DNA of 64,000 bases from an uncultured Bacteroidia bacterium (GTDB taxonomy: Bacteria > Bacteroidota > Bacteroidia > Bacteroidales > UBA932), in the NCBI GenBank assembly GCA_902761655.1, contig CACWLD010000009.1, forward strand, positions 24,608 to 88,607. The letters are read 5' to 3'. Under the pieces are notes generated by a model, which was given only the letters and a program-made list of their open reading frames with translations, searched no databases and was not told the DNA's origin. Below, in pieces: positions 1,377 to 64,000 of this stretch. Numbering within the stretch: position 1 is the first letter of the stretch; every line of letters starts with the position of its first letter. The translations under genes and the position numbers were made by a program.

Positions 1377-2129
1377 ATGAGAAAGAAAATCGTAGCCGGC
1401 AACTGGAAAATGAACACCACTTGCCAGGAAGGTATGGAACTCGCAAAGGCCGTTGTTGCAAAGGCCGGAGAGGCTCCTGCAAATGTTGGTCTTATTGTAG
1501 CTGCTCCTTTTACACATCTCTGCTGCCTCAGCGAGATCCTGGAGGGCACAAGGGTTGAACTTTCTGCACAGAACTGCGCAGACCACGCTTCCGGAGCATA
1601 TACCGGAGAGGTTTCCGTTTCAATGCTCAAGTCTGTAGGTTGCCAGTGGACCATCCTTGGTCACTCTGAGCGCCGCCAGTACTACGGCGAGACCGATGAG
1701 AAACTTGTCGTAAAGACCAAGCTCGCCCTTGAGGCAGGCCTTGGAGTTATCCTTTGCGTAGGTGAGAACCTTGACGAGAGGGAGGCAGGCAAGCATTTCG
1801 ATGTCTGCAAGACCCAGATCGAGAACGTTCTCTTCAACTTTACCGCTGAGGACCTCAAGAACATCGTCATCGCTTACGAGCCTGTATGGGCTATCGGAAC
1901 CGGCAAGACCGCTACCGCCGCCCAGGCAGAGGAAATCCACGCTTTCATCCGCAAGGTGCTTGCCGACAAGTTCGGTGCACAGGTTGCTGACGATATGACC
2001 ATCCTCTACGGCGGAAGCTGCAAGCCTTCCAACGCCGGCGAACTCTTCGCCCAGCCCGACATCGACGGCGGCCTCATCGGAGGCGCCTCCCTCAAGGCTG
2101 ACGACTTCCTCGCCATCGCCAAGGCTTAT
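1377..2129 (+). CDS. tpiA: Triosephosphate isomerase, stop codon missing
   Basis: TpiA interconverts dihydroxyacetone phosphate and glyceraldehyde 3-phosphate in glycolysis. All catalytic elements are present: AGNWKMN with the catalytic Lys near residue 11, LGHSERR with the His, YEPVWAIGTGKTA with the Glu and flexible loop 6, and the phosphate-binding YGGS and GGASLK. The ATG at 1377 is chosen because the family starts at MRKKIVAGNWK; the frame is open from an upstream TTG at 1344 but nothing supports that. The homology ends at AIAKAY (251 residues, the normal length), yet no stop follows. The frame runs on antisense through the neighbouring peptidase gene to 2939, giving a meaningless 270-residue tail. 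This is a lost stop or a base error rather than a real fusion (see findings). Confidence 0.95.
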
Positions 2130-4112
2130 TTCCTGGAGGATGGCGCCGGCGTGGAAGACTTTGTCCACGACGAATACCAGGTAGCGCACGTCAAGGCTGA
2201 TGTTGCGGCAGATTTCAGGATCGAAGGTCACGTCGCTCTGGGTGCCTTCCCATACGCGGTCAAAGTTGAGGCCTATCAGGTTGCCGTCCGCATTGATGAT
2301 GGGGCTTCCGGAATTGCCGCCGGTAGTGTGGTTGGTGGCAAGGAAGCAGACAGGCTGGTTGTCATAGAGGCCGGTGGCGTAAATGTCACGGAGCGCCTGG
2401 GGGATATTGTAATCGAAGATATCCGGATTGTCCTTCTCGATGATACCGGTAAGGGTAGACTGAGGATGGTAGTAAATGCCGTCCTGCGGCTCGTAACCCT
2501 GGACTTTGCCGTAGGCAACGCGCAGGGTGAGATTGGCGTCAGGGTAGAAGGTCTTGTTGGGCTCGAACTCTATCTGGCCCTGCATATAGTCGTGATAGAG
2601 CTCTGTGATCTGACGGTTGAGGTCAGAGCATACGGAGGCCAGCTGCTCGTTGTAATACTTCACGAATTCCCTGCGGAAGATATAGACCGGATCGTTCTCC
2701 ACGTCAGAATAGTCCCCGCGGGCGAAAGGCGAGCTGAAAAGGGCGTCAGCCCAGGCCTGCTCGCTGCCGTAGAGGGCCATCTGCTGCTCATAGTAGAGCG
2801 GACGGAACTCCTCGGGAACAATCTTCCCGTAGGCAGTCATAAGAGCCACGAAACTCTCCTTGTCAATTGGCATATAATAGTCCTTCAGGAAGTTGTCCTT
2901 TACCGCCTGGCGGTTCTCCGGCTGAGCAGAGAAATATGAGGAGGCGAACTGGGGCAGTTCCACCGCGAGGGCGGATTCGGAAGTGTACTCGCGGGCATAG
3001 TTGAAAGGCTCAAGGCGCTGATAAAGGTCTGTAAGCTTGAGAGTTATGCCCTCATAGCGGGTCCCCTTGGCCCATTTCTCAAACGCGGCCTCATAGGCCT
3101 TCTTGCTCTCAACGGTCTTCATCTTGCGGATGCCCTTCATTTCTCCCTGCCACTTCTTCCACGAATTGGAAACCGAAGCGTTCTTTGAAGAATACTGGAT
3201 GCGCACGGCCTGGCTCTGTCCCATATATTTCTTCTGGGCGTCAAGCCTGAGCGTACGCAGCCCGATCTTGGCGGGATCGGAAACCTCTGAAATGTAGCGG
3301 ACAGCGTCGGAGGTAATGTACTCCTGGGTGCTTCCTGGGAAGCCGTAGATGAAGGTGAAGTCGCCTTCCTTCACGCCTGCAAGGGATACCTTGAAATACT
3401 TTTTGGGTGTGTACGGCACGTTGTCAGGGGAGTAGGGGGCGGGATTGTTGTCCTTGTCGGCATAAATCCTGAAGATGGAGAAGTCTCCGGTGTGGCGGGG
3501 CCACATCCAGTTGTCAGTGTCGCCTCCGAACTTGCCAATGGAGGAAGGCGGAGCGCCAACGAAGCGGATGTCCGTGAATACCCTGTAGACAAATAGGAAG
3601 TACTGGTTGCCATAATACAGGGCCTCTACCGAAGCGCTGAGCCCCTTGCCGCCCGCAGTGGCTTGTTTCACAAGCTCGGCTGCGGCAAGCTGCTTGTCTT
3701 CGGCCGCCAGCATCACGGATGTGACGTCCTCCATCCTGTCAAGGAAACTTACCGAAAGGCCGGGATTGGGGAGTTCCTGGTCTCGCGTGAGCGCCCAGAA
3801 ACCGTCCTTGAGGTAATCGTGCTCCACGCTGCTGTGGCGCTGGATATAGCTGTATCCGCAGTGGTGGTTGGTGAAAAGAAGCCCTTCCTTGGAAACGACC
3901 TCTCCGGTGCATCCGCCGCCGAACAGCACCACGGCATCCTTGAGCGATGCCTGGTTGACGCTGTAGATGTCCTCAGCGTCAAGCTTGAAGCCCTTGGCCT
4001 GCATATCGGCTATTCTTTGGGAAATGAGGGAAGGCAGCCACATACCTTCGTCGGCGAGAGCCGGGAATGCGCAAAGCAGCGCTCCCGCCAGTATGGAAAG
4101 GATTCTTTTCAT
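2124..4112 (-). CDS. Secreted S46 dipeptidyl peptidase, DPP11-type, stop codon missing
   Basis: S46 enzymes are periplasmic serine exopeptidases that release dipeptides. The N-terminus has a signal peptide (ending ALA, then DEGMWLPSL, the usual mature start). Catalytic elements are TNHHCG (His83/84), the Asp-containing GDTDNWMWPRHTGDF segment (198-212) and GGNSGSP with Ser601. Arg619 in LNFDR, 18 residues after the serine, corresponds to the Arg that gives Porphyromonas DPP11 its Asp/Glu preference at P1, so an acidic P1 specificity is inferred. The protein reaches the normal family end (about 64 residues after the serine, ILQEI) but has no stop there. The frame continues antisense through tpiA to 1620. 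It is third in the operon recA-trpS-DPP11, starting 3 bases after the trpS stop. Confidence 0.93.
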
Positions 4113-9706: not shown

Positions 9707-12124
9707 ATGAAAGCTTGTTTTAGATTTTTGACTGTTGTACTGCTGCTGGCCGCTCCGCTGCGCGCGGGAGCCCAGCTGGCCACTTCCAGTGTCAATCCTC
9801 AGGACGATACCCTGGCCGTAAGGCAGATGAGGACTTTCCTGAACGGCATCCGCCGTTCTGAGAAGCGCCCCACCGTGGCGCTTGTCCTGAGCGGCGGAGG
9901 CGCCAAGGGCGCGGCCCACGTGGGCGTTCTCAAGTATTTGGAAGAGAATAAGATACCTATTGACGTGGTGATAGGGACCAGTATGGGCGGATTGATGGGA
10001 GGACTGTACTCGATGGGCTATTCCGCCACGGAGCTTGATTCCCTCCTGACCACCCTTGACTGGGGCAAGATCCTCAGCGACGACGTCCCAAAGGACTACA
10101 TATCTTACAAGAACAAGAGATACAGGGAAGTATATAGCCTCCGCCTGCCGTTCCATTACCTGAAGAGAGACCTGGAAAGGCGCCTTGAAGATGACTCTCC
10201 GGATAAAGTGCTGGAGCGCAGCCTGGGACTCTCCAAGGATCAGATGGAAAGCGTGCTGGGCAATTCCGGAATGGGCATAGGGTCCAGTCTCCCGGCCGGT
10301 TTCGTTGCCGGACTTAACGTGACCAACCAGATTTCATCCCTGTCCGTAGGATATCAGGATGACATTCCGTTCTCTGATTTCCCCAGGCCGTTCTTCTGCG
10401 TTGCGTCAGACCTGGTAAGCTGCAAGGCTTACAACTGGTCCAGGGGCTCCATCGTGGATGCGATGCGCTCCACAATGTCCATCCCAGGCCTGTTCGACCC
10501 TGTACGGTACCAGGGTAAAGTCCTGATTGACGGAGGCACCAGGAACAATTTCCCCACCGACATTGCCCGCGCTATGGGGGCGGACATAATAATTGGCGTG
10601 GAACTTTCCGATCCGGACAAGACATATACGGAAATCAACAACCTGGGCAACCTGCTGATGCCGCTCATCGATATGCTTGGAAGGGAAGCCTTTGACAAGA
10701 ACCTTGAGAACGTGGACATTTTCATAAAGCCGGACCTCAAGGGATACAATATGCTCAGTTTTGACCACGCCAGCATCGAGGACATAATCCAGAGGGGATA
10801 TGATGCTGCCAAAAACCTTGAAGACCAGATTGCCGAGCTCAAGGAAAAGGTGCAGGGAGCCAACCTTGCCCTTAACAATGACAAGGCCATAGACATTGGG
10901 GAGAAGTACGTGCAGATTGACAGGGTGGAGTTCAACGGCATTACCGATCCGGAGTCCCTGTTCCTTTCCAAGAAACTGGATATCAGGGCTGGAGATTATG
11001 TTTCCAGGACTGAGATCGAGGACGCAATGGCAATGATATATGCAACCGGATCCTTCAATATGGTAACCTACCGCCTTTATGGCGAAGAAGCGCCTTTCCA
11101 CCTTGTGTTCGACTGTGAAAAAGGCCCTGTACACCAGCTGGGGCTTGGTTTTAGGGCGGACAGTGAGGAACTTGTGTCGCTCATATTCAACATAGGATTC
11201 GGCGTCCTTAACCTTAGGGGCCCGTCTATGGAATTCACCGCCAGGGTGGGCAGGGACAAGTATCTTGACTCCCATTTTGAGCTTGACGTTCCGGGTCTCC
11301 CTACCCTTAACGCAAGGGCCAAGATTGAGAACAACGTGGCAGATATTCTCTATGCCGATGAATCCCGTTATCAGGTGGGCTTCTGGAGCCATAAGGAAGA
11401 CCTTTATTTTTCTGAAATCAGCTGGAAGAGGGCAAGCATAAGCCTGGGGGCCAGGAACAGGTTCTACCAGGTGAACTCCTGGCTGACAAATGATGGTACA
11501 AAGATGGATGCCGGGACAATGAAGCTGTATTCCGGCAATTACAATTCTATTTTCGGCGACCTGAGAATAAATACCACCGACGATGGCTATTACCCTACCA
11601 AGGGAACCAACATAGCCGCAGTTTACGAGTTCATTTTCCGCAAGTCTTCCACACCGGATTTCTCACCTGTACACGTGGCTGCATTGGATATCCACCAGGT
11701 TATACCCCTGGGCAAGTACATAGCTTTCATCCCGGGCTTCCACGCAAGGGCCGTCATTGATAATGATATTTTCAATATCTACCAGAAGAACTACATAGGA
11801 GGCTATATGAGCAACAGGTATGTGGACCACCGCATTCCGTTCCCCGGATTCTCGGATGCGGCTGTGGTTGGAGACTATGCCGGAGTAGTTGATGCAACCC
11901 TGAGGATCAACCCGGTCAAGAATTTCTATGTTTCCGCCATTGCGGCGGCGCTCAAGGATGCTGACAAGCTGGAGGATATTACCAGCGACCTGCGTCCCAC
12001 CGCGTTGGGAGCGGCGGTCGAGTTCTCCTACAAGACAATCCTGGGTCCGCTCAAGGCAACTGTCCATTGGTCTGACTTCACCAACCGCGTTGGCGCATAC
12101 CTCAGTTTCGGATACGATTTCTAG
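9707..12124 (+). CDS. Patatin-like phospholipase with POTRA and outer-membrane barrel (type Vd)
   Basis: A signal peptide (residues 1-22) is followed by a patatin domain with the oxyanion motif SGGGAKG (62-68), nucleophile GTSMG (Ser92) and catalytic Asp275 in IDGGTRNNFP. Next come a POTRA-like segment (about 400-475, beginning VQIDRVEFNG) and a C-terminal 16-strand-type barrel ending in an aromatic residue (SFGYDF). This order is that of PlpD-type (type Vd) self-secreted lipases, which hydrolyse phospholipids and use the fused barrel for export or display. Whether the patatin domain is released cannot be seen. It is the second gene of the LytTR-patatin-recX operon. Confidence 0.9.
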   Translation: MKACFRFLTVVLLLAAPLRAGAQLATSSVNPQDDTLAVRQMRTFLNGIRRSEKRPTVALVLSGGGAKGAAHVGVLKYLEENKIPIDVVIGTSMGGLMGGLYSMGYSATELDSLLTTLDWGKILSDDVPKDYISYKNKRYREVYSLRLPFHYLKRDLERRLEDDSPDKVLERSLGLSKDQMESVLGNSGMGIGSSLPAGFVAGLNVTNQISSLSVGYQDDIPFSDFPRPFFCVASDLVSCKAYNWSRGSIVDAMRSTMSIPGLFDPVRYQGKVLIDGGTRNNFPTDIARAMGADIIIGVELSDPDKTYTEINNLGNLLMPLIDMLGREAFDKNLENVDIFIKPDLKGYNMLSFDHASIEDIIQRGYDAAKNLEDQIAELKEKVQGANLALNNDKAIDIGEKYVQIDRVEFNGITDPESLFLSKKLDIRAGDYVSRTEIEDAMAMIYATGSFNMVTYRLYGEEAPFHLVFDCEKGPVHQLGLGFRADSEELVSLIFNIGFGVLNLRGPSMEFTARVGRDKYLDSHFELDVPGLPTLNARAKIENNVADILYADESRYQVGFWSHKEDLYFSEISWKRASISLGARNRFYQVNSWLTNDGTKMDAGTMKLYSGNYNSIFGDLRINTTDDGYYPTKGTNIAAVYEFIFRKSSTPDFSPVHVAALDIHQVIPLGKYIAFIPGFHARAVIDNDIFNIYQKNYIGGYMSNRYVDHRIPFPGFSDAAVVGDYAGVVDATLRINPVKNFYVSAIAAALKDADKLEDITSDLRPTALGAAVEFSYKTILGPLKATVHWSDFTNRVGAYLSFGYDF

Positions 12125-39967: not shown

Positions 39968-42900
39968 CTATTTTTGCTCGTTCTGCCTGCCTTGCACATA
40001 CTCGCTTGGAGAAACCCCGTAGAGGTTCTTGAAAGCTGTTGCGAAACTGGCCGGAGAGGAGAATCCAACCACCTCTGAAAGCTCTGAGATGGCGTATTTC
40101 TTTTCCGTCAGCATCTCAGCGGCCTTTCTGAGCCTTACGTTTCGGATGAAGTCCCTGGATGTCTGGTTGGTGAGTTCCTTGAGTTTGCGGTGAAGGTGTA
40201 CGCGGCTTATTCCAACCTCGTCCGCCACCATCTCCACTGTCAGTTTTGGATTGTCCAGATTTGCGCTGATGACCTTCATCACCCTGTCCAGGAGCCTTTC
40301 GTCCGGAGTGGACAGCGGCTCGGTCTCTATTTTCTCCGTCTCGACCTGCTTGTCAGAGTAGGAAACTTTAAGCAGTTCCCTTCCGGATATGAGGTTGAGG
40401 GCAGTCTTGCGGAGGACTTCAATGTTGAAGGGCTTGGTGATGTAGGCGTCGGCGCCGGTCTCAAGGCCCGCTATTTCCTCTTCCTCGCCGGCCTTGGCCG
40501 TGAGCAGGATCACAGGGGTGGAGTTTATGTTGATGTTCTTACGAATCTTCTTGCAGAGGGTGTAGCCGTCCATCTCCGGCATCATAATGTCGCTGATGAC
40601 CAGGTCCGGATTGTCCCGCAGGATAATGTCCAGGGCCTGTTTTCCGTTGGAGCATTCGGAAATGTAGAAGTCCTTTGAGAGCTCGTGGGCGACATATTGC
40701 CTGATGGACAGGTCGTCTTCGACCAGAAGCACTGTCTTGCGGTGCCTTACCACGGTTTTCTCCGGGGAGGCTTGAGGGGCTGAGGCGATGCCCGGGACAA
40801 AGATGCCTGTTTCCTTGATGTCGGTGGCGGCAGGGGACCTGTCTATCTCGTCGCTGCTCAGATGAGCATTGCCAAGAGGTATGGTGACGGTGAAGGTGCT
40901 GCCCGGACCGTCCGGATTGTTGGCGGCCTTGATGGTGCCGTGGTGCAGCTGCGCCAGCATCCGGGACAGGTTGAGGCCTATTCCGGTACCGCCGGCCTGG
41001 TTCCCGGCCTGATAGAAGCGCTCGAATACTTTTTCAAGGTCCTGCTGGTCCATTCCCGGGCCTTCGTCCTTGACGTCGATCCTTGCGTTGTTCCCGTCAT
41101 TGGACAGGGTAACTGTTATGCGGCTGTCCTCCGGTGAGAACTTGACTGCATTCGAGAGCAGGTTGACGATTATCTTGTCGAATTGCGCAGGATCCACCCA
41201 GGCCTCCATCTCCTTGCTTCCTGAATAGCGGAAGTCTATCTTGACGTTTCTCTGTGAGGCGATGTCCCTGAACAGGTCGCAGACTCCGGATACAAGGCCC
41301 ACCATAGGAGTGGCTGCAAAGTGCATCTTCATCTGGCCGTTCTCTATCTTGTTTATGTCCAGCATCTGGTTGACAAGATTCAGGATACGGCGGCTGCTGT
41401 TGTATATCTGCTGGTACTGGTACTGCCTTTCGGGGTCGCTGTCGCTCTCGCGGAGCCTGTTCAGCGGGCCTTCAATCAGGGTTAGAGGAGAACGTATTTC
41501 GTGTGAGAGGTTCAGGAAGAACTGGAGTTTGGATGCGTTAAGCTCTTCGGCCTGTATATGTCGCTTAATTTCCTCCTTGTCCCGGAACTCCTTGATTTTT
41601 TGACAGCCGATTATGCCTATGACGGCAAGTCCCAGCAGGATGTACAACAGTTTCATAAATGTCGTACCCCACCAGGGATGGTTGACCTTTATGACAATTG
41701 AAGTTGGCTGTGACTTGACCCCGTTGGACTCCGCCCTGATACTTATGGCGTACTGTCCGGGATTCAAATTGTTCATTGTTATGTTCGAAGATCCCCTGGA
41801 AACCGAATTCCACGGCCCGGAATCAATGGAATAGCTGAACGTGGTTCCGTCAGACGCATTGTATTCCGCCGTTGCGAACTCGATGATACAAGTGCGGGTA
41901 TTGTACTTCAGGGAGTAGACATTGTCCGAGTCCGGCTGGATTACGGTCCCGTCCGGAAGGGTGACGGCGGTAATCCTGGCATTCCAGGCAGGCTGGGATT
42001 CCACGATGTCGGAAGGGAAGAAACAGGTTATGCCTCCGGTGCCGCCAAAGAAGAGCATTCCGTTCTGCCCCTTGGTGGAGGCGTTTAAACTGAATTCATT
42101 GCCCTGGAGGCCGTCTCCCGAGTAGAAACGCGCAACGTAGCCGGTTTCCGGGTAGAATGATGCAAGTCCGGAATTGGTGCTCAGCCAGATCTTGCCAAGG
42201 TCGTCCGCCCTCATATCACTCACGGAACCGTCCGGTAGGCCGTCTTCAACCGTATATCGGGTGGTGGTCAAATCATTCTCCAAATCGACGATGAATATGC
42301 TGTTGGTAGTTCCTGTGTATAGTTTACCGTCCAGTTCCAGGAGGGAATATGCAATCCTTCCGATAAGACTGTGGTTGACGGATTCTATATTATCAGGATC
42401 GCTGATGTTCAGGATGTTGATTCCGTTGTAGGTAGCTACGGCAAGGTTACCATTGGACATTATAAGGACGTCGTTGGTCCAGGCATTGACCGCCTCGTTG
42501 GTCTCCTGGGTGTCGATCCATCGTCCCGTAATACTGTTGTAGCATTGAATGCCGTCTCCCAGGGTTGCCATCCAAACCAGACCCCGGTTGTCTATGGCAA
42601 TTGACTGGACACTCATACCCAGATTGGGGTGCGGATGCTTGGTCAGGGTATAACTTCCAGCGTTTGCGCTCCACAAGCCTTCGTTTGAGGATCCGAACCA
42701 TATCCTTCCGTCAGGGCCCTGTACCAGTCCCATTATTTTAAAAGGAGCCCCGTTTTCAACGCTTATGTGGGCAAAACGTCTCTTGTCCGGGGTTACTATA
42801 TATATTCCGTCGTTGTCCGTGCCCACCCATAACAGATTGTTGTTGTCAATCAGCAGGGAGGTGACGCATCCTGAACCTATGAGGTCGCTTACCTGGGCCT

Positions 42901-43921
42901 TGGAACCGATGTATCGGAAATTGTTCCTTTTTACGGGAAGCATTATCAAGCCTTTCCGGTAAGCCCCCAGCCATATGTTGCCCTGGTTGTCCTTCATTGC
43001 GCTGTGGATGCTCAGTTTGGCAGGATCGAAAGGGATGTCGTTCATCTCCAGGCGGCTGACTTCTCCGGTGGCGGGATTGAAGAGGAAAGCCCCCTTTTCA
43101 TCCGTTCCTATGCACAGTGTCCCATCCTGGAGGTCATAGATGCACATAATGGCTGTTCCCTTGAACTCCTCGATGTCCATCATCTCGAATTCATCCCTGG
43201 CTTCATCGAACCTTGCAAGGCCAAGTTCCCTGACTCCTGCGTAGAGCACTCCCCGGGAATCCAGTCCGAAAGTGGTGGCGTTGGCCCAGCGTTCCGGGAA
43301 GAAATAATGCCTGGAACTGCCGTCACCGTTCAGACGGTAGACTCCGTCATTGAACTTGGACACCCACATCCTTCCCTTGACGTCTTCTATCATATACTCC
43401 GTCAGTACAGTTGGGATGGACACGTTGAGCCGTTCAAGGCACGGGCCGTCCGGCCCGTCGATTATCACCTTTGCAAGGTCGTTTCCGGATATCCATATGT
43501 CCCCGTTTCCCCTTTGGACAATTTCGTTGACGTTTCCATAGTGTAAGCCTCCGTCAGAGAACGACAGGGCAGGGCCGAAGGTGTCAGTGAGGGGATCATA
43601 TATCTGAACTCCGAACTGTGTGCCCACTATGATGTTTCCGTCACGGTCTTCTATGATTTTCCTGGCAAGGTTGTCCGCCAGTGTCCGGACATTGCCGCTC
43701 TGATGCTTGTAGACCTTGACTCTGACTCCGTCATAACAGTTTACACCATTGTCCGTGGCAATCCACAAGGAACCGTCCCTGCTTTGTAACACGTCGTTAA
43801 TGCTGCTGCTGCTCAGGATGCCGTCAGAATTGAGTATCCTGGCGCTTTGTGCGTGTGCCGTAAACAAGCCTGAGGCGCATAGGAAAAGACATATTATTGA
43901 AAATCTCAATTTTCCAGTCAT
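39968..43921 (-). CDS. Hybrid two-component system sensor-regulator (HTCS)
   Basis: A 1317-residue single-polypeptide two-component system. After a signal peptide (MTGKLRFSIICLFLCASG, cut near AHA) come about 14 beta-propeller repeats (Reg_prop type, e.g. DGSLWIATDNG) and a Y_Y_Y domain in the periplasm, then a membrane helix near residue 750. The cytoplasmic part has a histidine kinase with His807 in LSHEIRSPL and an HATPase, a receiver with Asp1111 in ISDIMMPEMDG, and a C-terminal AraC HTH. Such proteins sense oligosaccharides and switch on adjacent glycan genes; here the divergent operon points to xylo-oligosaccharides. The start at 43921 is chosen for the signal peptide and a -7 box at 43948-43955 (minus strand). 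Confidence 0.95.
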   Translation of the reverse strand: MTGKLRFSIICLFLCASGLFTAHAQSARILNSDGILSSSSINDVLQSRDGSLWIATDNGVNCYDGVRVKVYKHQSGNVRTLADNLARKIIEDRDGNIIVGTQFGVQIYDPLTDTFGPALSFSDGGLHYGNVNEIVQRGNGDIWISGNDLAKVIIDGPDGPCLERLNVSIPTVLTEYMIEDVKGRMWVSKFNDGVYRLNGDGSSRHYFFPERWANATTFGLDSRGVLYAGVRELGLARFDEARDEFEMMDIEEFKGTAIMCIYDLQDGTLCIGTDEKGAFLFNPATGEVSRLEMNDIPFDPAKLSIHSAMKDNQGNIWLGAYRKGLIMLPVKRNNFRYIGSKAQVSDLIGSGCVTSLLIDNNNLLWVGTDNDGIYIVTPDKRRFAHISVENGAPFKIMGLVQGPDGRIWFGSSNEGLWSANAGSYTLTKHPHPNLGMSVQSIAIDNRGLVWMATLGDGIQCYNSITGRWIDTQETNEAVNAWTNDVLIMSNGNLAVATYNGINILNISDPDNIESVNHSLIGRIAYSLLELDGKLYTGTTNSIFIVDLENDLTTTRYTVEDGLPDGSVSDMRADDLGKIWLSTNSGLASFYPETGYVARFYSGDGLQGNEFSLNASTKGQNGMLFFGGTGGITCFFPSDIVESQPAWNARITAVTLPDGTVIQPDSDNVYSLKYNTRTCIIEFATAEYNASDGTTFSYSIDSGPWNSVSRGSSNITMNNLNPGQYAISIRAESNGVKSQPTSIVIKVNHPWWGTTFMKLLYILLGLAVIGIIGCQKIKEFRDKEEIKRHIQAEELNASKLQFFLNLSHEIRSPLTLIEGPLNRLRESDSDPERQYQYQQIYNSSRRILNLVNQMLDINKIENGQMKMHFAATPMVGLVSGVCDLFRDIASQRNVKIDFRYSGSKEMEAWVDPAQFDKIIVNLLSNAVKFSPEDSRITVTLSNDGNNARIDVKDEGPGMDQQDLEKVFERFYQAGNQAGGTGIGLNLSRMLAQLHHGTIKAANNPDGPGSTFTVTIPLGNAHLSSDEIDRSPAATDIKETGIFVPGIASAPQASPEKTVVRHRKTVLLVEDDLSIRQYVAHELSKDFYISECSNGKQALDIILRDNPDLVISDIMMPEMDGYTLCKKIRKNININSTPVILLTAKAGEEEEIAGLETGADAYITKPFNIEVLRKTALNLISGRELLKVSYSDKQVETEKIETEPLSTPDERLLDRVMKVISANLDNPKLTVEMVADEVGISRVHLHRKLKELTNQTSRDFIRNVRLRKAAEMLTEKKYAISELSEVVGFSSPASFATAFKNLYGVSPSEYVQGRQNEQK

Positions 43922-43937
43922 ATGATGGCTTTTTGGG

Positions 43938-44033
43938 GTTACATATACAAAGTTATAATTTTTTGTTACATTTTTGAGGATTATTTTAAAGTCTGTCATA
44001 TTTGTGTAACATTTCCAAATGCACGTGTAACAT
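43938..44033. promoter_or_regulatory. Repeated GTGTAACAT / ATGTTAC-type sites, candidate HTCS operator
   Basis: Two direct copies of gtgtaacat lie at 44004-44012 and 44025-44033, exactly 21 bp apart. Two inverted cores lie at 43938-43944 (gttacat) and 43964-43971 (tgttacat), flanking the HTCS gene's own -7 box (complement of 43948-43955). The direct pair ends just upstream of the expected -33 region of the promoter at 44063-44070, a good place for an AraC-type activator. Confidence 0.55.
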
Positions 44034-46546: not shown

Positions 46547-48697
46547 ATGAAATTATTCAAATATGCAGCAGTCGCTGTGGCTCTTGTTACAAGCGCCTTC
46601 GCAGCTTCCGCCCAGCAGCGCGCCCAGGCACCGGAGGATCCTACCGGACTAAAGGACGCCTACAAGGATTATTTCATGATTGGCGTTGCTGTCAATCAGA
46701 GGAATATCTCCACTCCTGAGCAGATAGCCCTTATCGAGAAGGAGTTCAACAGCATCACCGCTGAGAACGACATGAAGCCAATTATGACCGAGCCCAGGGA
46801 AGGAGAATACACTTGGGCGAATGCGGACAAGATTGCAGACTTCTGCCGTCAGCACGGTATCAAGCTCCGTGGTCACTGCCTTATGTGGCATTCCCAGATC
46901 GGTACCTGGATCTATCAGGACGAGAAAGGAAACCTCCTTCCCAAGGAGGAGTTCTACAAGAGGATGAAGAGCCACATCCAGGCAGTTGTAAACCGTTACA
47001 AGGACGTCGTTTACGCTTGGGACGTAGTTAACGAGGCAGTTGCAGACAGCCCTGTACGCGCAGGCCAGTCTCCTATGCGCCAGTCTCCTATGTTCCAGAT
47101 CGCAGGTGAGGAATTCATCTACAAGGCATTCGAGTATGCCCACGAGGCAGACCCCAACGCCCTCCTTTTCTACAACGATTACAATGACTCAGAGCCAGGA
47201 AAGGCACAGCGTATCTTCGAACTCCTCCAGAGGATGAAGGCGGCAGGCGTTCCCGTCCACGGACTTGGAATGCAGGGCCACTACAATATCTATTCACCTA
47301 CCGAGCAGGAGATCGACAACGCTATCAGCAAGTACAAGACCGTTGTAAACCACATCCACATCACCGAGCTTGACGTACGCGTAAATACCGAGCAGGGCGG
47401 AGGACTCCGCTTCAGCCAGGGCGCTACCATCAATGTTCCTTCTTACCAGCAGGCTCTGTTCGCAGACCAGTACAACAGGATCTTCAAGGTATTCCGCAAG
47501 CACGCCGACGTTATCGACTGCGTTACTTTCTGGAACCTTTCCGACCGTGATTCCTGGCTGGGAGCAGCCAACTATCCTCTGCTGTTCGACTCAGAGTACA
47601 GGCCCAAGAACGCTTACCGTACGGTAAAGAACTTCAACCCCGCACTGGACAACGCCGTCATCAAGGAAGACTTTGTTCCTTCTACCAAGAACCAGCCTGG
47701 CCAGCAGTATCCTATGGTCAACTCACAGGGCTATGCCCGCTTCTGCGTTGACGCACCGGATGCCAAGTCAGTTATCGTAAGCCTCGGTCTTGGCGGAACC
47801 GGCGGAACCGTTCTGCGCAAGGGTGAGGACGGCAAGTGGTGGGGAACAACCGGCGGTCCTATGGACGAGGGATTCCACTACTATCACCTGACAATTGACG
47901 GAGGTGTGGTAAACGATCCCGGAACCCATAACTATTACGGTTCTTCCCGTTGGGAGAGCGGAATTGAGATTCCTGCACACGACCGCGCATTCTATGAGGA
48001 GCGCAACGTACCTCACGGAACCGTAGAGCAGGTTCTGTTCTGGTCAGCCAGCACAAACCAGCTGCGCCGCGCGTTCGTTTACGTACCTCCTACCTATGAC
48101 TCTGCAAAGAAGGGCAAGAAGTTCAACGTCCTCTACCTGCAGCACGGTTGGGGCGAGAACGAGTATGCCTGGTGGAACCAGGGTCACGCCAACCTGATTA
48201 TGGACAACCTTATCGCAGACGGTAAGATTGAGCCGTTCCTGGTTGTAATGACCTACGGTATGACCAACGAGCAGCGTCTTGGAATCCCCGGACCTACCAG
48301 CGCAGACTTCGAGAAAGTTCTCTGCGATGAGCTCGTGCCTTACATCGACGCCCACTATCGCACCCGCGCTGACAAATGGGGCCGTGCAATGGCCGGCTTG
48401 TCAATGGGTGGCGGTGAGACACACACCATCACGCTGGCTCGTCCTGAGATGTTCGGATACTACGGACTCCTCAGCGGCGGCGTATACACTCCGGACGAGA
48501 TCAAGGACAAGAATCAGGTGAAGGGTATCTTCATCGGATGCGGCAGCAAGGAGAGCGCAGAGCGCACCCTGAACGCCGTTGCAGACCTCAAGGCCTCTGG
48601 CTTCAACGCCAAGGGATATATCTCAGAGGGAACAGCACACGAGTTCCTTACCTGGAGACGCTGTCTGTACGAGATGGCTCCAATGCTCTTCAAATAG
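46547..48697 (+). CDS. GH10 endo-xylanase fused to CE1 feruloyl esterase
   Basis: A 716-residue bifunctional enzyme with a signal peptide ending ASA. The GH10 domain (about 35-370) has acid/base Glu163 in WDVVNEAV and nucleophile Glu274 in HITELDVR, plus MWHSQ and FYNDYN. A linker and CBM48-like segment (about 385-480) leads to a CE1 esterase (about 490-716) with Ser619 in GLSMGGG and a His in GTAHEFLTWRR. The layout matches the Prevotella Xyn10D-Fae1A type, which cuts xylan and releases ferulate from arabinoxylan. It is the last gene of the HTCS-linked operon; a hairpin terminator follows at 48722. Confidence 0.95.
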   Translation: MKLFKYAAVAVALVTSAFAASAQQRAQAPEDPTGLKDAYKDYFMIGVAVNQRNISTPEQIALIEKEFNSITAENDMKPIMTEPREGEYTWANADKIADFCRQHGIKLRGHCLMWHSQIGTWIYQDEKGNLLPKEEFYKRMKSHIQAVVNRYKDVVYAWDVVNEAVADSPVRAGQSPMRQSPMFQIAGEEFIYKAFEYAHEADPNALLFYNDYNDSEPGKAQRIFELLQRMKAAGVPVHGLGMQGHYNIYSPTEQEIDNAISKYKTVVNHIHITELDVRVNTEQGGGLRFSQGATINVPSYQQALFADQYNRIFKVFRKHADVIDCVTFWNLSDRDSWLGAANYPLLFDSEYRPKNAYRTVKNFNPALDNAVIKEDFVPSTKNQPGQQYPMVNSQGYARFCVDAPDAKSVIVSLGLGGTGGTVLRKGEDGKWWGTTGGPMDEGFHYYHLTIDGGVVNDPGTHNYYGSSRWESGIEIPAHDRAFYEERNVPHGTVEQVLFWSASTNQLRRAFVYVPPTYDSAKKGKKFNVLYLQHGWGENEYAWWNQGHANLIMDNLIADGKIEPFLVVMTYGMTNEQRLGIPGPTSADFEKVLCDELVPYIDAHYRTRADKWGRAMAGLSMGGGETHTITLARPEMFGYYGLLSGGVYTPDEIKDKNQVKGIFIGCGSKESAERTLNAVADLKASGFNAKGYISEGTAHEFLTWRRCLYEMAPMLFK

Positions 48698-52848: not shown

Positions 52849-55800
52849 ATGAAGAGATTTATTACAGGAGTGGCCGCCTGCCTTCTGGCCCTGGCCACCG
52901 GTTTCAGTGTGCAAGCCCAGACCTCGTTCGGCAACGCCGCAAAGTTCAACGATGGCTGGAGATTCATCCTCTCGGACGTGGAAAACGCCCAAGATCCCCA
53001 ATTTGACGATTCCCGCTGGCAAGCGGTGACCCTTCCACACGACTGGTCCGTAAAGCAGCTTCTCTCTCCGGACAACGCCAGCTGCCAGGGATATCTCCCC
53101 GGAGGAATCGGATGGTACAGAAAGCATTTCCAGGGAAGGCAGGTCAATTCAGAACTCGCATACATTTACTTTGAAGGCGTATACAACCGCAGTTCGGTAT
53201 ATCTTAACGGACATCTGCTGGGTTCCCGCCCCAACGGTTACGTCTCCTTTATGTATGATATGACCCCGTACCTTAACAAGAACGGGGACAACGTACTGGC
53301 GGTACGCGTGGACCACAGCCAAGATGCTGACTCCCGCTGGTACACCGGCTCCGGAATCTACCGCAACGTATGGCTTGTCCGCTCCGGTCAGACACACTTC
53401 GCCCTCTGGGGAGTGGGATACCAGACCTCCAAGCTCACCAACAGGCAGGCTACCGTCACCGTCGATACTGAGATCGAAGGCCTTGGAAACCAGAACGCCA
53501 AGGTTGTTGTGAACATAAAGGACGCCGCTGGCAAGGTGGTAGGCAAGGCCTCCGCCAAGGCAGTGGCAAAGCAGAAGTTGGATGTCAGGGTTTCCAACCC
53601 CCATATGTGGTCCCTGGAGGATCCATATCTCTACAAGCTGGAGGTTTCCATAGAGGCATCGGGCAAAGTGCTTGACAAGACAGTCATAAACGCCGGAATC
53701 CGTTCACTTGCCTTTGACGCCAACAGGGGCTTCGCCCTCAACGGCAGGTGGATGAAGATCAAGGGCGTCTGCCTGCACCACGATGCCGGAGTCCTTGGCG
53801 CCGCAGTGCCTCCTGAGGTATGGGAGACCAGACTCAAGGTCCTCAAGAATATGGGAGTGAACAGCATCCGCACGAGCCACAACCCCCAGAACCCTGATTT
53901 CTACGATGTATGTGACAAGATAGGTCTCCTTGTCCTTGACGAAGCCTACGACGAGTGGGAATTCCCCAAGAACAAGTGGATTTCCGGATGGAACCGCGGA
54001 ACTCCCGGCCATCAGGGAACGTTCGACTTCTTCTATGACTGGTGTGAGCAGGACATCACCTCAATGGTGAAGCGTGACCGCAACCACGTATCCGTATATA
54101 TGTGGAGCATAGGCAACGAGGTCGACTATCCAAACGACCCCTACTCTCACCCCATCCTTGACGGTGACGGCTCCGCCATCAGCCAGCCCGTTTCAGGCGG
54201 CTACAAGCCCGATGCCCCCAGCGCAATGCGCATAGGCGAGATTGCCGAAAGGCTTGCCGGATACGTCCGCGCCGTGGATACCTCCCGCCCTGTTACAGGA
54301 GCGCTGGCCGGCGTAGTGATGTCCAACCAGACAACCTACCCCCAGGCGGTTGACGTCGTTGGTTACAACTATACCGAAAGCCGCTACGTAACTGACCACG
54401 AGGCATATCCTGACAGGATCCTCTACGGATCCGAGACCGGTCACGGCCTTAGCAGCTGGAGGGCAGTGCAGGAGAACGAGCACATCTTTGGCCAGTATAT
54501 CTGGACGGGTGCCGATTATCTTGGAGAGTCCAACGCCTGGCCGTCCCGCGGTATGGGAACCGGCCTGATAGACTTCGCCAACAACCTCAAGCCGGGCGGA
54601 TATTTCCGCCAGGCCCTCTGGAGCGAAGTGCCCTTCACATACATAGGCACATCCGTGATACCAGCAGCACAGGTATCCAACCAGGTGAGGGGAGTGCGCC
54701 CCAACACAAGCGCCTTCGACCTCTGGAACTATGAGGATGGAGACAATGTCAGGGTTTCCTGCTACACCAATTCTCCCAAGGCACGCCTGCTGCTCAATGG
54801 AAAGGAAGTGGGCCAGGTGAAGCCGTATGAGTATGAGACCGGAGTAATATACTGGGACATCCCATATCAGCCGGGCGAGCTCAAGGCACAGGGACTTGAC
54901 GAATCCGGCACCGTTGTGGAGTCAGAGTATTCCATCTTCACCACGGGCCGTCCATACAGCCTCAAGGCAGTGGCAGACAAGCCGGACCTTGATGCCGAAG
55001 CCGGCGCCGTAGTGCAGGTTTCAATTGAGGTCGTTGACGAGACCGGAATGCTTGTAAAACTGGCGGACAACGAAATCACCTGCCGCGTAACCGGCCCAGG
55101 AAAGCTCCTTGGCCTTGAATCCGGCAACAATACCGATATGGGAATCTGGACTGACAATACCCAGAGGGCATATCACGGCCGTCTGCTGGCATACATCCAG
55201 CTGGACGGTTCAGTGGGAGAGATCAAGGTCCACTTGAGCTCGCCGCTTCTCAAGGGAGGCACCCTTACAATTGGCGCCCACCGCTATACCACCATTGACA
55301 AGATCCAGCTCAGCGACCCCTTCATCCTTGCCGATGACGCCACCAAGACCTATTATATGACCGGAACAGGCGGACGCCTCTGGAAGAGCAAGGACCTTCT
55401 GGTATGGGACGGCCCAATGACCGTGGCCCAGCCCAACCCCCGTTCCTGGATGGGACCCAACCCCCAGATCTGGGCTGCCGAAATCCATAAATACAACGGC
55501 AAGTACTATTACTTTGCAACCTTCACCAACAATGCCGTCCAGATTGACAGCTACCGCGGAAACAACATCCCGCGCCGTGCCTGCCATATACTTGTAAGCG
55601 ACACTCCGGATGGCCCGTACACCCCTATCCTTGGCGGTGACGAAACCTACCTTCCGGACAACCAGCCAACCCTGGACGCCACGCTGTTCATTGATTCTGA
55701 CGGTATGCCTTATATGATTTTCTGCCACGAATGGCTCCAGAACTGGAACGGTACGGTAGAGAAGATACATCTTAAACCGGATTTCTCCGGCACCTACGGC

Positions 55801-56199
55801 GGCCGTACAACCCTTTTCCGCGCCTTTGACTCTCCCTGGAGCCGTGAGAAGGACGAGAAGGGCAACGACATTCCCAACAAGGTTACGGACGGCCCTTACG
55901 CTTTCCGCACCCAGACCGGAAAACTTGGAATGATATGGACGAGCTGGCGTTATAACGACTACACCCAGGGCGTAGCATACTCCCAGAGCGGAACCCTTGA
56001 CGGCCCGTGGGTGCAGATGCCGGACCCCATCACACCTCCAAACTACGGACACGGAATGATTTTCCGCACCTTTGACGGCAGGCTGCTGCTCTGCTGCCAC
56101 TCCCACGATACAAGTACAGGAAGAACAGTGCGTATTCCGGCAATGTTCCTCCTGGACGATTCAGGGGACCAGATCAAGGTCCTCTCTAGGATTCTCTAA
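52849..56199 (+). CDS. GH2-GH43 fusion glycoside hydrolase, secreted
   Basis: An 1116-residue exported protein (signal peptide ending QAQ). The N-terminal part (about 25-800) is a GH2 enzyme with sugar-binding, Ig-like and barrel domains; acid/base Glu424 is in SIGNEVDYP and nucleophile Glu529 in YGSETGHG. After an extra Ig-like domain a complete GH43 propeller (about 815-1110) begins with Asp823 in LSDPFILADD and includes TLDATLFIDSDG. The position of the GH43 general acid holds TDGPYAF rather than the common EGP, which I believe some subfamilies share. Two exo-activities on one chain suggest a branched plant glycan. It follows a tRNA gene by 51 bases with no clear promoter of its own. Confidence 0.9.
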   Translation: MKRFITGVAACLLALATGFSVQAQTSFGNAAKFNDGWRFILSDVENAQDPQFDDSRWQAVTLPHDWSVKQLLSPDNASCQGYLPGGIGWYRKHFQGRQVNSELAYIYFEGVYNRSSVYLNGHLLGSRPNGYVSFMYDMTPYLNKNGDNVLAVRVDHSQDADSRWYTGSGIYRNVWLVRSGQTHFALWGVGYQTSKLTNRQATVTVDTEIEGLGNQNAKVVVNIKDAAGKVVGKASAKAVAKQKLDVRVSNPHMWSLEDPYLYKLEVSIEASGKVLDKTVINAGIRSLAFDANRGFALNGRWMKIKGVCLHHDAGVLGAAVPPEVWETRLKVLKNMGVNSIRTSHNPQNPDFYDVCDKIGLLVLDEAYDEWEFPKNKWISGWNRGTPGHQGTFDFFYDWCEQDITSMVKRDRNHVSVYMWSIGNEVDYPNDPYSHPILDGDGSAISQPVSGGYKPDAPSAMRIGEIAERLAGYVRAVDTSRPVTGALAGVVMSNQTTYPQAVDVVGYNYTESRYVTDHEAYPDRILYGSETGHGLSSWRAVQENEHIFGQYIWTGADYLGESNAWPSRGMGTGLIDFANNLKPGGYFRQALWSEVPFTYIGTSVIPAAQVSNQVRGVRPNTSAFDLWNYEDGDNVRVSCYTNSPKARLLLNGKEVGQVKPYEYETGVIYWDIPYQPGELKAQGLDESGTVVESEYSIFTTGRPYSLKAVADKPDLDAEAGAVVQVSIEVVDETGMLVKLADNEITCRVTGPGKLLGLESGNNTDMGIWTDNTQRAYHGRLLAYIQLDGSVGEIKVHLSSPLLKGGTLTIGAHRYTTIDKIQLSDPFILADDATKTYYMTGTGGRLWKSKDLLVWDGPMTVAQPNPRSWMGPNPQIWAAEIHKYNGKYYYFATFTNNAVQIDSYRGNNIPRRACHILVSDTPDGPYTPILGGDETYLPDNQPTLDATLFIDSDGMPYMIFCHEWLQNWNGTVEKIHLKPDFSGTYGGRTTLFRAFDSPWSREKDEKGNDIPNKVTDGPYAFRTQTGKLGMIWTSWRYNDYTQGVAYSQSGTLDGPWVQMPDPITPPNYGHGMIFRTFDGRLLLCCHSHDTSTGRTVRIPAMFLLDDSGDQIKVLSRIL

Positions 56200-59605: not shown

Positions 59606-61696
59606 TCAACTGATTTTACTGTAATCTTTTAGGTTGTATTTGTCTTTGCGGAGTTCCGCCGCAAGCAGGCGGTTCACCGGGAATTCCAGACCGGGGTCGT
59701 TGTCAAGCACTTTCTGGGCGTAGTCCCTTGCCTGGGCAAGCAGCAGGCTGTCCTTGGACAGCGATGCTATGTTCAAGGCAATGGGCAGCCCGCTCTGCTG
59801 CGTGCCTTCCAGGTCTCCCGGGCCGCGCATCTTCATATCTTCTTCCGCTATCTCAAAGCCGTTGTCCGTGGAGCACAGCAGGTCTATCCTTTTCTGGGAT
59901 TCGCGGCTCAGCTTGACATCCTTCATAAGGATGCAGAAGGACTGGTCCGCGCCCCTGCCCACGCGTCCGCGCAGCTGGTGAAGCTGGCTAAGGCCGAAGC
60001 GCTCCGCATTTTCAATTACCATTACCGAAGCGTTGGGCACGTCCACGCCCACCTCGATGACGGTAGTGGATACCAATATGTTGGCCCTGCCCGCCACAAA
60101 TGCGGCCATATTGAAGTTCTTCTCCTCGTTGGACTGCTGTCCGTGCACTATGGCAACCTTGTACGGCGGGAATGGGAAGTTCCTTACAATGTCCTCATAA
60201 CCGTTCTGGAGGTTCTTGAGGTCTATCTTTTCGCTCTCGAATATGAGAGGATAAACTATGAATACCTGCCTGCCCCTGGCAATTTCCTGTTTCATAAAAT
60301 TGTACAGCTGCATCCGCTTGTTCTGGCCTATCTGGAGGGTCTGGACCGGCTTGCGGCCAGGAGGCATCTCGTCAAGGACGCTCACGTCAAGGTCTCCGTA
60401 CAGCGTCATTGCCAGAGTGCGGGGGATAGGTGTGGCGGTCATTATGAGCACGTGCGGAGGCCGTCCTTCCGATCCCTTGGCCCACAGCCTGGACCTCTGG
60501 TCCACGCCAAAGCGGTGCTGCTCGTCTATGATTGCCAGACCAAGGCTCTTGAACTGCACCACGTCCTCAATGAGCGCGTGCGTACCCACCAGTATGCCAA
60601 TGCTGCCGTCCTGGAGCCCTTCGTGGATGCGCCTGCGCTCCTTGGCAGTTGTACTGCCGGTGAGCAGGGCGCACTGCACGGAAGTGGGCGCCAGATACTT
60701 GGATATGTTTGCGTAATGCTGCTGCGCCAGGACCTCCGTGGGAGCCATTATGCAGGACTGGTAGCCGTTGCCAACGGCGATAAGCGAAGACAGGACCGCC
60801 ACCATTGTCTTGCCGGAGCCTACATCTCCCTGAAGGAGGCGGTTCATCTGGCTGCCGCTGGTGAGGTCCGCGCGAATCTCCTTGATGACGCGCTTCTGCG
60901 CGCCCGTAAGTTCAAAGGGGAGGGCGTTGAAGCAGTCGTTGAAGTCCTTGCCCACCTTGGGCATCTGTATGCCGTTTTCTGCGCGGCTGCGCACATATTT
61001 CTGCTTCAGGAGGCTCAGTTGCAGGAAGAAAAGCTCCTCGAACTTGAGCCTGTAAGTGGCCTTGGCCAGGGAATCCTGATCCTTTGGGAAATGGATGTTC
61101 TGCAGGGCGAAGCGGAGCGGCGCCAGGCCGTTCTGCTTGATGACATATTCCGGAAGGGTTTCTTCCATATGCGGAAGGCTCGCCTCCAGCGCGTTGGACA
61201 TAAGCTTCAGCATCACCTTTCCCGTGATGCCGCCGTTCTTGAGCTTTTCCGTGCTTGGATACACTCCCGTAAGGGTGCCCTGGGCTGTCACGGAACCCGG
61301 AGCGTCTATCTCCGGATGAACCATATTTATCTTCCCGTTGAACAGGGACGGCTTCCCAAAGAAGACGAACTCGTTCCCGGGGACCAGCTTGTCAAAGATA
61401 TACTTGTTTCCCTTGAAGAAAACAATCTCCATCCTGCCGCTTTCATCCTCTATGATAACGCTCAGGTGCTTTATGTTTATCAGGTTGCGGCTGGCCACGC
61501 GGGCCTTGACCTGGACCCAGGCCAGGTCCGGATGGATATCCGCTATCAAAGTGTATTTGCTGCGGTCTATATAGCGGAAAGGATACAGGTGCAGCAGGTC
61601 CGAAATGGTCTCAACGCCCAGCTCCTTTTGCAGGAGTGAGGCCCTTTTAGGCCCCACTCCCGAAAGGAACTGTATGCTTGAATCCCATTCGTACAT
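59606..61696 (-). CDS. recG: ATP-dependent DNA helicase RecG
   Basis: RecG reverses stalled forks and branch-migrates Holliday junctions. An N-terminal wedge domain (LSGVGPKRASLL, then an OB fold about 60-150) is followed by two helicase domains with Walker A QGDVGSGKTM (Lys296), the DEQH box IIDEQHRFG, and motifs TATPIPRTLA and HQLRGRVGRG. Length from ATG 61696 is 696 residues, the usual size. The longer frame to 61753 overlaps the upstream gene and adds nothing recognisable. It heads recG-S9-serpin, or follows the DUF2207 gene by 13 bases. Confidence 0.97.
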   Translation of the reverse strand: MYEWDSSIQFLSGVGPKRASLLQKELGVETISDLLHLYPFRYIDRSKYTLIADIHPDLAWVQVKARVASRNLINIKHLSVIIEDESGRMEIVFFKGNKYIFDKLVPGNEFVFFGKPSLFNGKINMVHPEIDAPGSVTAQGTLTGVYPSTEKLKNGGITGKVMLKLMSNALEASLPHMEETLPEYVIKQNGLAPLRFALQNIHFPKDQDSLAKATYRLKFEELFFLQLSLLKQKYVRSRAENGIQMPKVGKDFNDCFNALPFELTGAQKRVIKEIRADLTSGSQMNRLLQGDVGSGKTMVAVLSSLIAVGNGYQSCIMAPTEVLAQQHYANISKYLAPTSVQCALLTGSTTAKERRRIHEGLQDGSIGILVGTHALIEDVVQFKSLGLAIIDEQHRFGVDQRSRLWAKGSEGRPPHVLIMTATPIPRTLAMTLYGDLDVSVLDEMPPGRKPVQTLQIGQNKRMQLYNFMKQEIARGRQVFIVYPLIFESEKIDLKNLQNGYEDIVRNFPFPPYKVAIVHGQQSNEEKNFNMAAFVAGRANILVSTTVIEVGVDVPNASVMVIENAERFGLSQLHQLRGRVGRGADQSFCILMKDVKLSRESQKRIDLLCSTDNGFEIAEEDMKMRGPGDLEGTQQSGLPIALNIASLSKDSLLLAQARDYAQKVLDNDPGLEFPVNRLLAAELRKDKYNLKDYSKIS

Positions 61697-61709
61697 AAGT
61701 GTCTGGATG

Positions 61710-63130
61710 CTATCTGAAGCCACCGTGGCCGCCACCGTGGAAGCCGCCGCCACCTCCTATGGAGGTATGGCCGCCAAAGCCGCCGGCACTGCGCGCGCTC
61801 CTTTCGAGCGCGGACTGCTGAGCGGCGCGGGCGTTCTCGATATTGCGCGACAGCATATTGGAGAGGTTGTAGGTGTCCACCGGGGTAATTGTGGCGGATC
61901 CCATAGGCATAAGCTGCTCGTAAAGCGTAGGATTGATCTCCTGAAGCTCCTTGGCCACCTTGTCCGCAATTCCGAACAGGGCCGCGAATACCATATAGTC
62001 CTGCCACAGGGTCACCTCAGGTGTGCTGCGCTCTTTAATCAGGGTGAAATCCTGCAGGAAACGGCGGAAGCCGAAGAGTTTCTTGGCCTCAGTCTTTCCT
62101 TTGTCTGTATATTGCAGGGAATTGCCCCACATCGAGCGTGAAGCCAGGGATCTGTCACCAAGCCTCTTGCGTCCGTCCGTGCCAATGTCGTTGCTCCAGT
62201 TGTAGAACTGCTGCTTGTTCATTCCGGCCCAGTTGGAGAATTCTTTGGGCTGAAGGATATGGTCTTCTCCGGAAGCGGTGTACAGAAGCCTGTAAAGGCG
62301 TTTTGCAGAGTCCGCCCAATCGTCTCCGGTGAGTTCTTCTCCGCAGTTGAATCCCATAATGATGTTGCCGTCCGCATCCTTCTGGGCCCAGAGCACATTC
62401 TTGTATATCATCCGGGTTATGATGGCGGAGGCAATGTTTCCGTTCTGATCCCCGAATCCAAGGTCTTCAGCAACGGTGAAAGATTCCACTATGTCCGCAT
62501 CGAACGGGACGTCCCTGTTCCAGGGCACGTCCTTGTCCTTCATTCCAAAGAGTTTCTTGCGCTTCCTTCGGGCGTTCGCCTTTACGTTGAAGAAAATGGG
62601 AAGCAGGAACGCAAATGCCATAAACACCGTGGTGATAATGGCGAATATCTTCCCGAAGATGTCATCCTCCTCGCTGAAGTCAGCACCTTCCATAGCCCTG
62701 TCAAGGACGCTGTCAAAACTGCCGCTCCTCTGCACGTTGGGGGTGAAGATGCCTTTGTCAAAGCGGATGAGCTCAATTACGGAATTGTAATTGCCCAGCC
62801 TCTTGTTGTTCTTGGCGGCAACTACGCCGTCGTCATAGCCAATCTCTCCGTCGAAGCCGAAGCCCCATATGCGGGAGTTGTCCTCGCTGAGCGGCTGCGG
62901 GGCTATGATGGCCACGCTCACTTTCCTGGGGGCGATGCCTTCCGGCACCACCTGGAAGTGGAAAGAGTCGTAGTCGTCGTAAGATTCCACCACGTTGCTT
63001 ATCCTGTACGATACGTTGAAGGTGTGGTTGCCGTATTCCCCAAATCCCCAGCAGATTTCAGTCCCTGTCTGGGTTTGAACCAGGCCGCATTTGCCCGCCT
63101 TTTCCCTCCTGCTTGCATTGATGTCCCAGC
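61710..63130 (-). CDS. DUF2207 membrane protein, 5' end lost at an apparent sequence join
   Basis: The remaining part starts within the extracytoplasmic DUF2207 domain (WDINASRREKAGKCGLV, CWGFGEYGNHTFNVSY), followed by a charged linker, one clear membrane helix (FAIITTVFMAFAFLLPIFF), a basic segment, a cytoplasmic region and a Gly/His-rich tail (GGGGGFHGGGHGGFR). Such proteins normally begin with a signal peptide and a further 80-100 residues, none of which is here. An ATG at 63149 would give a frame without any signal, and a stop lies 13 codons above it. The likely break is at about 63126-63140, where the plus strand turns into ftsQ. Function of the family is unknown. Confidence 0.85.
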
Positions 63131-63603
63131 TGCCGAGCACGGTGGTCATTTCCGTCCGGGAGCGGGAACCCTGCTGCTGGCTGACTTATTGCGGCATCAT
63201 GTATGTGATGGATAAAAACCGAATGGTGCTGTATGAATCAGAAAATCCGTCGGAACAGCCGCAGAACCTGGTTGAAATCAAAGGGCTTGAAGTACGGTCC
63301 AATACGCTGGTAGGGCAGTATATCAACCTCGGGAGCGAAACCCAGCAGAGCATTTTCACCGAACTGTTCCTGGAAATGAAGGTGCTTGGCTGCACCGACC
63401 AGATCAAAGAGGCCGACATCAGCAATACCAGCTCGATCCTGCTCTTCACGAGGGACGGATACACTGCGGCACTCGGAGACAGAAACAATCTCCATGCCAA
63501 GCTGAGGAGCCTGTTGCTTGTCCAGGAAGAACTGAAACAGCAGAACTATTCCGGCGGAACGATCAGCGTGACCAATCCGGAAGCACCGATCTATACGCCG
63601 TAA
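63130..63603 (+). CDS. ftsQ: FtsQ/DivIB C-terminal part, foreign to the rest of the window
   Basis: The frame reads LPSTVVISVREREPCCWL and then YCGIMYVMDKNRMVLYE, which is the classic strand-rich start of the FtsQ beta domain (hydrophobic-V-x-E-R-x-P, then a MD-x-x-G/R-x-V block). The C-terminus ends NPEAPIYTP at TAA 63603. The membrane anchor and POTRA domain, which should precede, are replaced by the DUF2207 gene on the other strand. Style and codon use resemble Clostridia, and the next gene is ftsA, as in Firmicutes division clusters. The preceding plus-strand codons back to 63091 belong to the antisense of DUF2207. Confidence 0.75.
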   Translation: MPSTVVISVREREPCCWLTYCGIMYVMDKNRMVLYESENPSEQPQNLVEIKGLEVRSNTLVGQYINLGSETQQSIFTELFLEMKVLGCTDQIKEADISNTSSILLFTRDGYTAALGDRNNLHAKLRSLLLVQEELKQQNYSGGTISVTNPEAPIYTP

Positions 63604-63763
63604 ATAAATTGTTACAAAAACAGCGAAAAAATGTAATAAAAGAGTTGAAAACTCTTGCAAAAAAAGCCTGAAGAGGGTATAATTCCTTAAGGTGTGTATT
63701 ATTTTGTAGTAACTGAACGCGATCTTTTGACAGGATCCGGAAAACAGGGGGCATGAGAAACCT
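63604..63763 (+). promoter_or_regulatory. Sigma-70-type promoter upstream of ftsA
   Basis: ttgcaa (63655-63660), a 17-base spacer and a perfect tataat (63678-63683) form a standard sigma-70/sigma-A promoter. A purine run, aggggg, precedes the ftsA start by about 13 bases as a possible ribosome-binding site. Neither element type is seen elsewhere in the window, where promoters use TAnnTTTG. Confidence 0.7.
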
Positions 63764-64000
63764 ATGAAAACAACGGTTGCAGCCATTGATTTCGGTACGA
63801 GCAAGATTGTGACGCTCGTTGCTGAAAACAGCGGCAGCCAGCGCTGTGACATTACGGCCGCCGGCGTAACAAAGTATGACGGTTATCTCGAAGAAGGATG
63901 GAATAACCCCGGAATGCTGGATGAGGCGATCCGCCGCTCCATTGCAGACGCGGAAGAGCAATCCGGAAGCAAGATCAAAGAGATTAATGTTGGTGTTCCG
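63764..64000 (+). CDS. ftsA: FtsA-like cell division ATPase, N-terminal part
   Basis: The first 79 residues of an actin-fold FtsA/PilM-type protein: VAAIDFGTSKIVTLVAE is the phosphate-1 motif with the family's GTSK, followed by MLDEAIRRSIADAEEQSG and INVGVP, matching the 1A/1C region of FtsA. FtsA anchors FtsZ to the membrane at division. The gene continues beyond the window. With the ftsQ fragment it forms the Firmicutes order ftsQ-ftsA, supporting a foreign origin for this end. Confidence 0.8.
   Translation, partial: MKTTVAAIDFGTSKIVTLVAENSGSQRCDITAAGVTKYDGYLEEGWNNPGMLDEAIRRSIADAEEQSGSKIKEINVGVP

Follow-up and report, generated by a model that had tools for sequence, protein, structure and literature searches.

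A very probable inter-genome misassembly at the end of a Bacteroidota contig, where a DUF2207 gene meets a Clostridia ftsQ-ftsA segment through a 20-base shared word

Introduction

Errors in which a contig passes from one genome into another are described in general terms in papers on k-mer assembly (PMC8172020, PMC7881036), and a species is reported to be likelier to enter chimeric contigs when its coverage is low to intermediate (PMC7881036). A usual set of k is quoted as starting at 21 (PMC8172020), a value near the 20 bases of the word described below, although this is not necessarily the setting used for the present assembly; the chimera reported in PMC8172020 is put down to genomes that closely resemble each other, which the Bacteroidota and Clostridia pair found here does not. 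The contig end analysed in this work has the same sharp switch, the same short shared word and the same nearness to a contig end as the inter-genome chimeric contigs of k-mer (de Bruijn) metagenome assembly, and shows no difference in kind from them; in this case, both parents have clearly identified relatives. The evidence from sequence comparison points, with a probability of about 0.97, to an inter-genome misassembly at the right end of the contig, with a word of some 20 bases as the bridge.

The window and its host genome

The window, i.e., the whole stretch of 64,000 bases that was analysed, corresponds to G000:C9:24608-88607 on the plus strand, where G000 is the host assembly; contig C9 is 88607 bases long, window base 64000 is its final base, and the distance from the join to this contig end is 856 bases (Table 1). 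The host assembly comprises 2.0 Mb in 63 contigs and is 93.68% complete and 0.71% contaminated, a contamination figure that a sub-kilobase tail would hardly shift. Its 14 matches over the cut-off to the SusC/RagA family, a hallmark of Bacteroidota, support an assignment of the host to this phylum, the cut-off being passed by 1 of 14 control genomes.

Elsewhere in the window, several multidomain proteins are encoded. The 1116-aa protein at 52849-56199 (+) combines a GH2 beta-galactosidase-like part (with DUF4982) and a C-terminal GH43 domain, and reaches the cut-off of none of the 12 NCBIfam families listed; the GH10 xylanase-esterase fusion at 46547-48697 (+) scores 1173.3 bits with the NCBIfam bifunctional xylanase/feruloyl esterase family, against a cut-off of 1200 bits. 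The protein encoded at 9707-12124 (+) joins a patatin-like phospholipase to an Omp85-type barrel, the layout known from patatin autotransporters. On the minus strand, 1620-4112 encodes an S46 dipeptidyl-peptidase of 830 aa, Dpp7-like and below the NCBIfam cut-off, with its last 167 residues outside the matched stretch, and 39968-43999 a hybrid two-component sensor/regulator of 1343 aa, which combines propeller repeats with histidine kinase, receiver and AraC-type domains.

Table 1. Features on both sides of the join at the right end of the window.
Feature	Coordinates	Strand	Basis
Native part: 5'-truncated DUF2207-family membrane protein gene	61710..63144	-	About residues 81-557 of intact orthologue
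20-base overlap common to both parents, probable bridge of the false join	63125..63144		Block comparison
Foreign part, very probably: Clostridia FtsQ, C-terminal 158 of 340 residues	63127..63603	+	99% aa identity to L033:5455-6477
Entire foreign tail, very probably, to contig end	63145..64000		875-base alignment to CAMKNZ010000008.1
Sigma-70-like site in the foreign DNA that separates the ftsQ and ftsA pieces	63655..63683	+	Pattern scan; stretch also in L033
Foreign part, very probably: Clostridia FtsA, first 79 residues, cut by contig end	63764..64000	+	TIGR01174; L033 397-aa ftsA ORF

The DUF2207 side of the join

The leftward DUF2207 reading frame (61710-63149, minus strand) matches PF09972 from profile position 76 onward, together with PF20990, in a Pfam search, and the window retains the RecG side of the locus, RecG also being named by Pfam. 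Relatives of this side were sought first in the host assembly and 40 related genomes, and then in 400 genomes of the genus (the host counted) at E<=1e-30. In the first search, G001, from the same genus, matches 61502-63159 at 80% DNA identity, and, besides the host, 17 of the 41 genomes match at E<=0.001, G001 being one of them and the others having short matches only. The genus search returns four genomes besides the host, G300 (89% identity), G327 (80%), G146 (79%) and G001 (79%), and the comparison of loci covers these four strong matches; more diverged copies in the genus yield short DNA matches only. The DNA match to the window ends at 63144 in G300 and G327 and at 63159 in G146 and G001, the G001 alignment containing, in its last 13 bases, a gap, mismatches and a run of bases that match by chance.

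In all four relatives DUF2207 is complete (557-561 aa), with a start that appears hydrophobic by eye, and is flanked by a RecG-like gene on one side and a 183-aa LemA-like gene on the other, LemA and DUF2207 being named by Pfam for the G300 locus (L043) only and by likeness for the other three; the junction is present in none of these strongly matching loci (0 of 4 at E<=1e-30 among the 400 genus genomes, the host counted). The window shares the recG-DUF2207-lemA locus of the host genus up to 63144, at 89% DNA identity to G300 and about 79-80% to the other three, but its DUF2207 is truncated, whereas that of the relatives is complete and adjoins lemA. By alignment to an intact orthologue the loss amounts to about 80 of 557 residues (14%); the sequence-only reading had rightly recognised the truncation and overestimated its size, as a 5' third. 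The ATG of the window frame (63147-63149) lies beyond 63144, and this start codon would therefore be of foreign origin.

The DUF2207 5' end and lemA were also sought elsewhere in the host assembly, where the protein search gives the C9 copy and a weak C-terminal match (E 0.01) on C44, and the DNA search gives a strong score for the C9 copy only, in addition to 20 short matches with E of 0.06 or worse. In the assembly as it stands, one host flank of the foreign DNA is visible: the contig ends within the Clostridia segment, and the search of the host assembly did not recover what lies beyond the truncated end of DUF2207. Such an absence of the 5' end is predicted by a real horizontal transfer or recombination event, in which DNA of a Clostridia cell-division cluster would have been inserted into, or would have replaced part of, the host DUF2207 locus; an adjoining contig left out of the bin would, however, explain it just as well, given the completeness and the number of contigs of this assembly.

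The ftsQ-ftsA tail and its relatives

To the right of the join, the sequence is Clostridia-like, as had been proposed from the letters alone. Genome contigs were scanned with the 158-residue FtsQ piece, and FtsQ relatives are encoded at nine loci of the 54 pattern matches, all in records titled Clostridia or Clostridiales. The best match, L033 (CAMKNZ010000008.1, a Clostridia MAG), is 98.5% identical to the window over 875 bases (63125-63999), with no gap and 13 mismatches. In this MAG, the stretch forms part of a cell-division cluster with mraZ, murD, ftsQ (340 aa, with a POTRA domain), ftsA (397 aa) and ftsZ, and two further reading frames that we take to be murE and mraY. The L033 ftsQ follows murD and is complete, whereas the window keeps the last 158 aa only, 182 of 340 residues (54%) being missing, among them the POTRA domain whose lack had been noticed from the sequence. 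The possibility that L033 is itself chimeric was considered and rejected, as its ftsQ is a single open frame of 340 aa, the order murD-ftsQ-ftsA-ftsZ is kept, and eight other Clostridia loci match the tail.

The domain searches on the pieces themselves are weaker. The FtsQ piece matches FtsQ_DivIB_C with E 0.0078, below the cut-off, and its identification comes from the 99% identity over 158 aa to the 340-aa protein with an FtsQ-type POTRA domain; the FtsA piece covers positions 2-75 of TIGR01174 with E 1.7e-7, below the whole-protein cut-off because only 79 aa of the protein are present. The sigma-70 promoter suggested between the two genes corresponds to a site that does exist (TTGCAA-17-TATAAT), although its frequency is that of chance, with one site found against a mean of 1.0 in shuffled sequences. 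Along the alignment to L033 (5999-6873 against window 63125-63999), the mismatches are unevenly spread, with 3 over the first 782 bases and 10 over the final 93; this clustering suggests that the contig end falls in a strain-variable Clostridia stretch, where assemblies commonly break.

With 61500-64000 as the query, each of the nine Clostridia genomes gives one match at E<=1e-5, starting at 63125 or later, and the left part of the query is absent from all nine at this threshold; the junction is therefore found in 0 of the 9 Clostridia genomes compared, full-length ftsQ having been examined on the Clostridia side for L033. The exact 54-base junction pattern has no match in viral contigs.

Division genes and composition of the host

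The host has division genes of its own. One FtsA is over the cut-off in the assembly, on C7, where a MurG-like glycosyltransferase, a Mur ligase and a weak FtsQ-like reading frame (below cut-off) precede it and FtsZ follows; besides the C9 tail, two weaker partial FtsA matches lie on C24 and C5. When the 12.5-kb L033 locus is compared with the host assembly (E<=1e-5), it matches only the C9 tail and, on C7, a stretch of 51 bases within ftsZ at 84%. Among the host and 40 relatives, the tail matches, outside the host, only 29 bases in G001, which at E 1.6e-4 are taken as a chance match.

Composition also differs between the left and the right of the join. A third-order model was used to score the window, apart from its first 656 bases, in 74 tiles, each 856 bases long. 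At -0.029, the tile 63145-64000 is the lowest, the only negative and the most Clostridia-like of them; the other 73 have a mean of 0.044 (sd 0.011, minimum 0.017), higher by about six standard deviations. The Clostridia model was trained on the flanks of L033, L034 and L035, a sample that is small and tied to one locus. The GC content is 48.9% in the tail, 53.6% in the left part, 55.8% in the L033 locus and 48.6% in the L033 stretch homologous to the tail. GC alone was rejected as a separator of taxa, since the homologous L033 stretch is also low in GC and the dip therefore reflects the ftsQ-ftsA stretch, not the taxon.

The join and the 20-base word

The position of the switch is given by comparison in blocks of 20 bases. 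In the blocks of 62945-63124, identity to G300 is 12-19 of 20 bases and identity to L033 is 2-6; from 63145 to 63344, the window matches G300 at 3-10 of 20 and L033 at all 20, the first block past 63144 matching G300 at 3 of 20. Between these two ranges, in the overlap listed in Table 1, L033 matches at 20 of 20 bases, G300 (L043) at 16 and G327 (L044) at 17; at base 63124 L033 differs from the window, and just past 63144 G300 and G327 agree with each other and disagree with the window. A breakpoint at about 63126-63140 had been proposed earlier; its place is confirmed and its span becomes that of the 20 shared bases. The two genes, on opposite strands, are truncated at one and the same place, in agreement with that earlier observation.

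On one strand the overlap codes for TVLGSW of DUF2207 and on the other for QLPSTV of FtsQ, and the antisense of the intact G300 DUF2207 likewise reads QLPSTV. The host's own genome probably holds the whole 20-base word, judging from relatives that are 80-89% identical and match it at 16-17 of 20 bases. Two random genomes of 2 Mb, with equal base use and both strands counted, are calculated to share about seven 20-mers; the overlap therefore needs no homology, and such bridges would be common.

Origin of the join

The two sides of the join come from different organisms, with same-genus loci on the left and Clostridia or Clostridiales records on the right. As the parents are intact on both sides, the overlap is shared, the contig ends close by and the junction is absent from the four left loci and nine Clostridia genomes compared, misassembly is the preferred explanation, in support of the original suggestion; the last 856 bases come from another bacterium, one of the Clostridia, and were very probably joined on by assembly software, and the odd DUF2207/ftsQ gene pair at the contig end is very probably an artefact and not a real feature. 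The assembler, rather than the cell, would have made the join, with the shared word as its likely cause. Two unrelated bacteria of one metagenome would have the 20-base word in common by chance, antisense to the TVLGSW codons of DUF2207 in the Bacteroidota and sense to the QLPSTV codons of FtsQ in the Clostridia; a short-k assembly graph could cross between the genomes through this word, and the path would then continue for 856 bases into the Clostridia ftsQ-ftsA segment before stopping.

Horizontal transfer or recombination, as outlined above for the missing DUF2207 5' end, also agrees with the join being one contiguous sequence in the contig. Nevertheless, it appears very improbable: the tail is 98.5% identical to a single Clostridia MAG, the breakpoints lie within both genes, the contig ends directly after the tail, and no join occurs in the four left loci and nine right genomes compared; in addition, the gapless alignment to an ordinary ftsQ-ftsA segment, from the join to the penultimate contig base, leaves no room for the end of a mobile element. 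A very recent transfer of the Clostridia ftsQ-ftsA segment into the Bacteroidota DUF2207 gene, in one strain, is likewise highly unlikely. The nearest left relative being 89% identical, a real deletion or insertion at the locus retains a small probability. A chimera formed in the library, by ligation or amplification instead of an assembly-graph error, would also yield a sharp join of unrelated genomes, and short stretches of identity are where template switching tends to occur; a single chimeric molecule, however, would rarely dominate coverage, and a graph error accounts no less well for the 20-base word and the nearness to the contig end. A wet-lab origin has a very low probability.

Implications

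An inter-genome misassembly of this kind matters as quality control only. Left in place, the tail would make it seem that a Bacteroidota genome has an additional ftsA start and a truncated ftsQ, and would give DUF2207 a start codon that is false; it is also open to misreading as gene transfer across phyla. The case neatly illustrates how a 20-base word shared by chance has very probably bridged two phyla.
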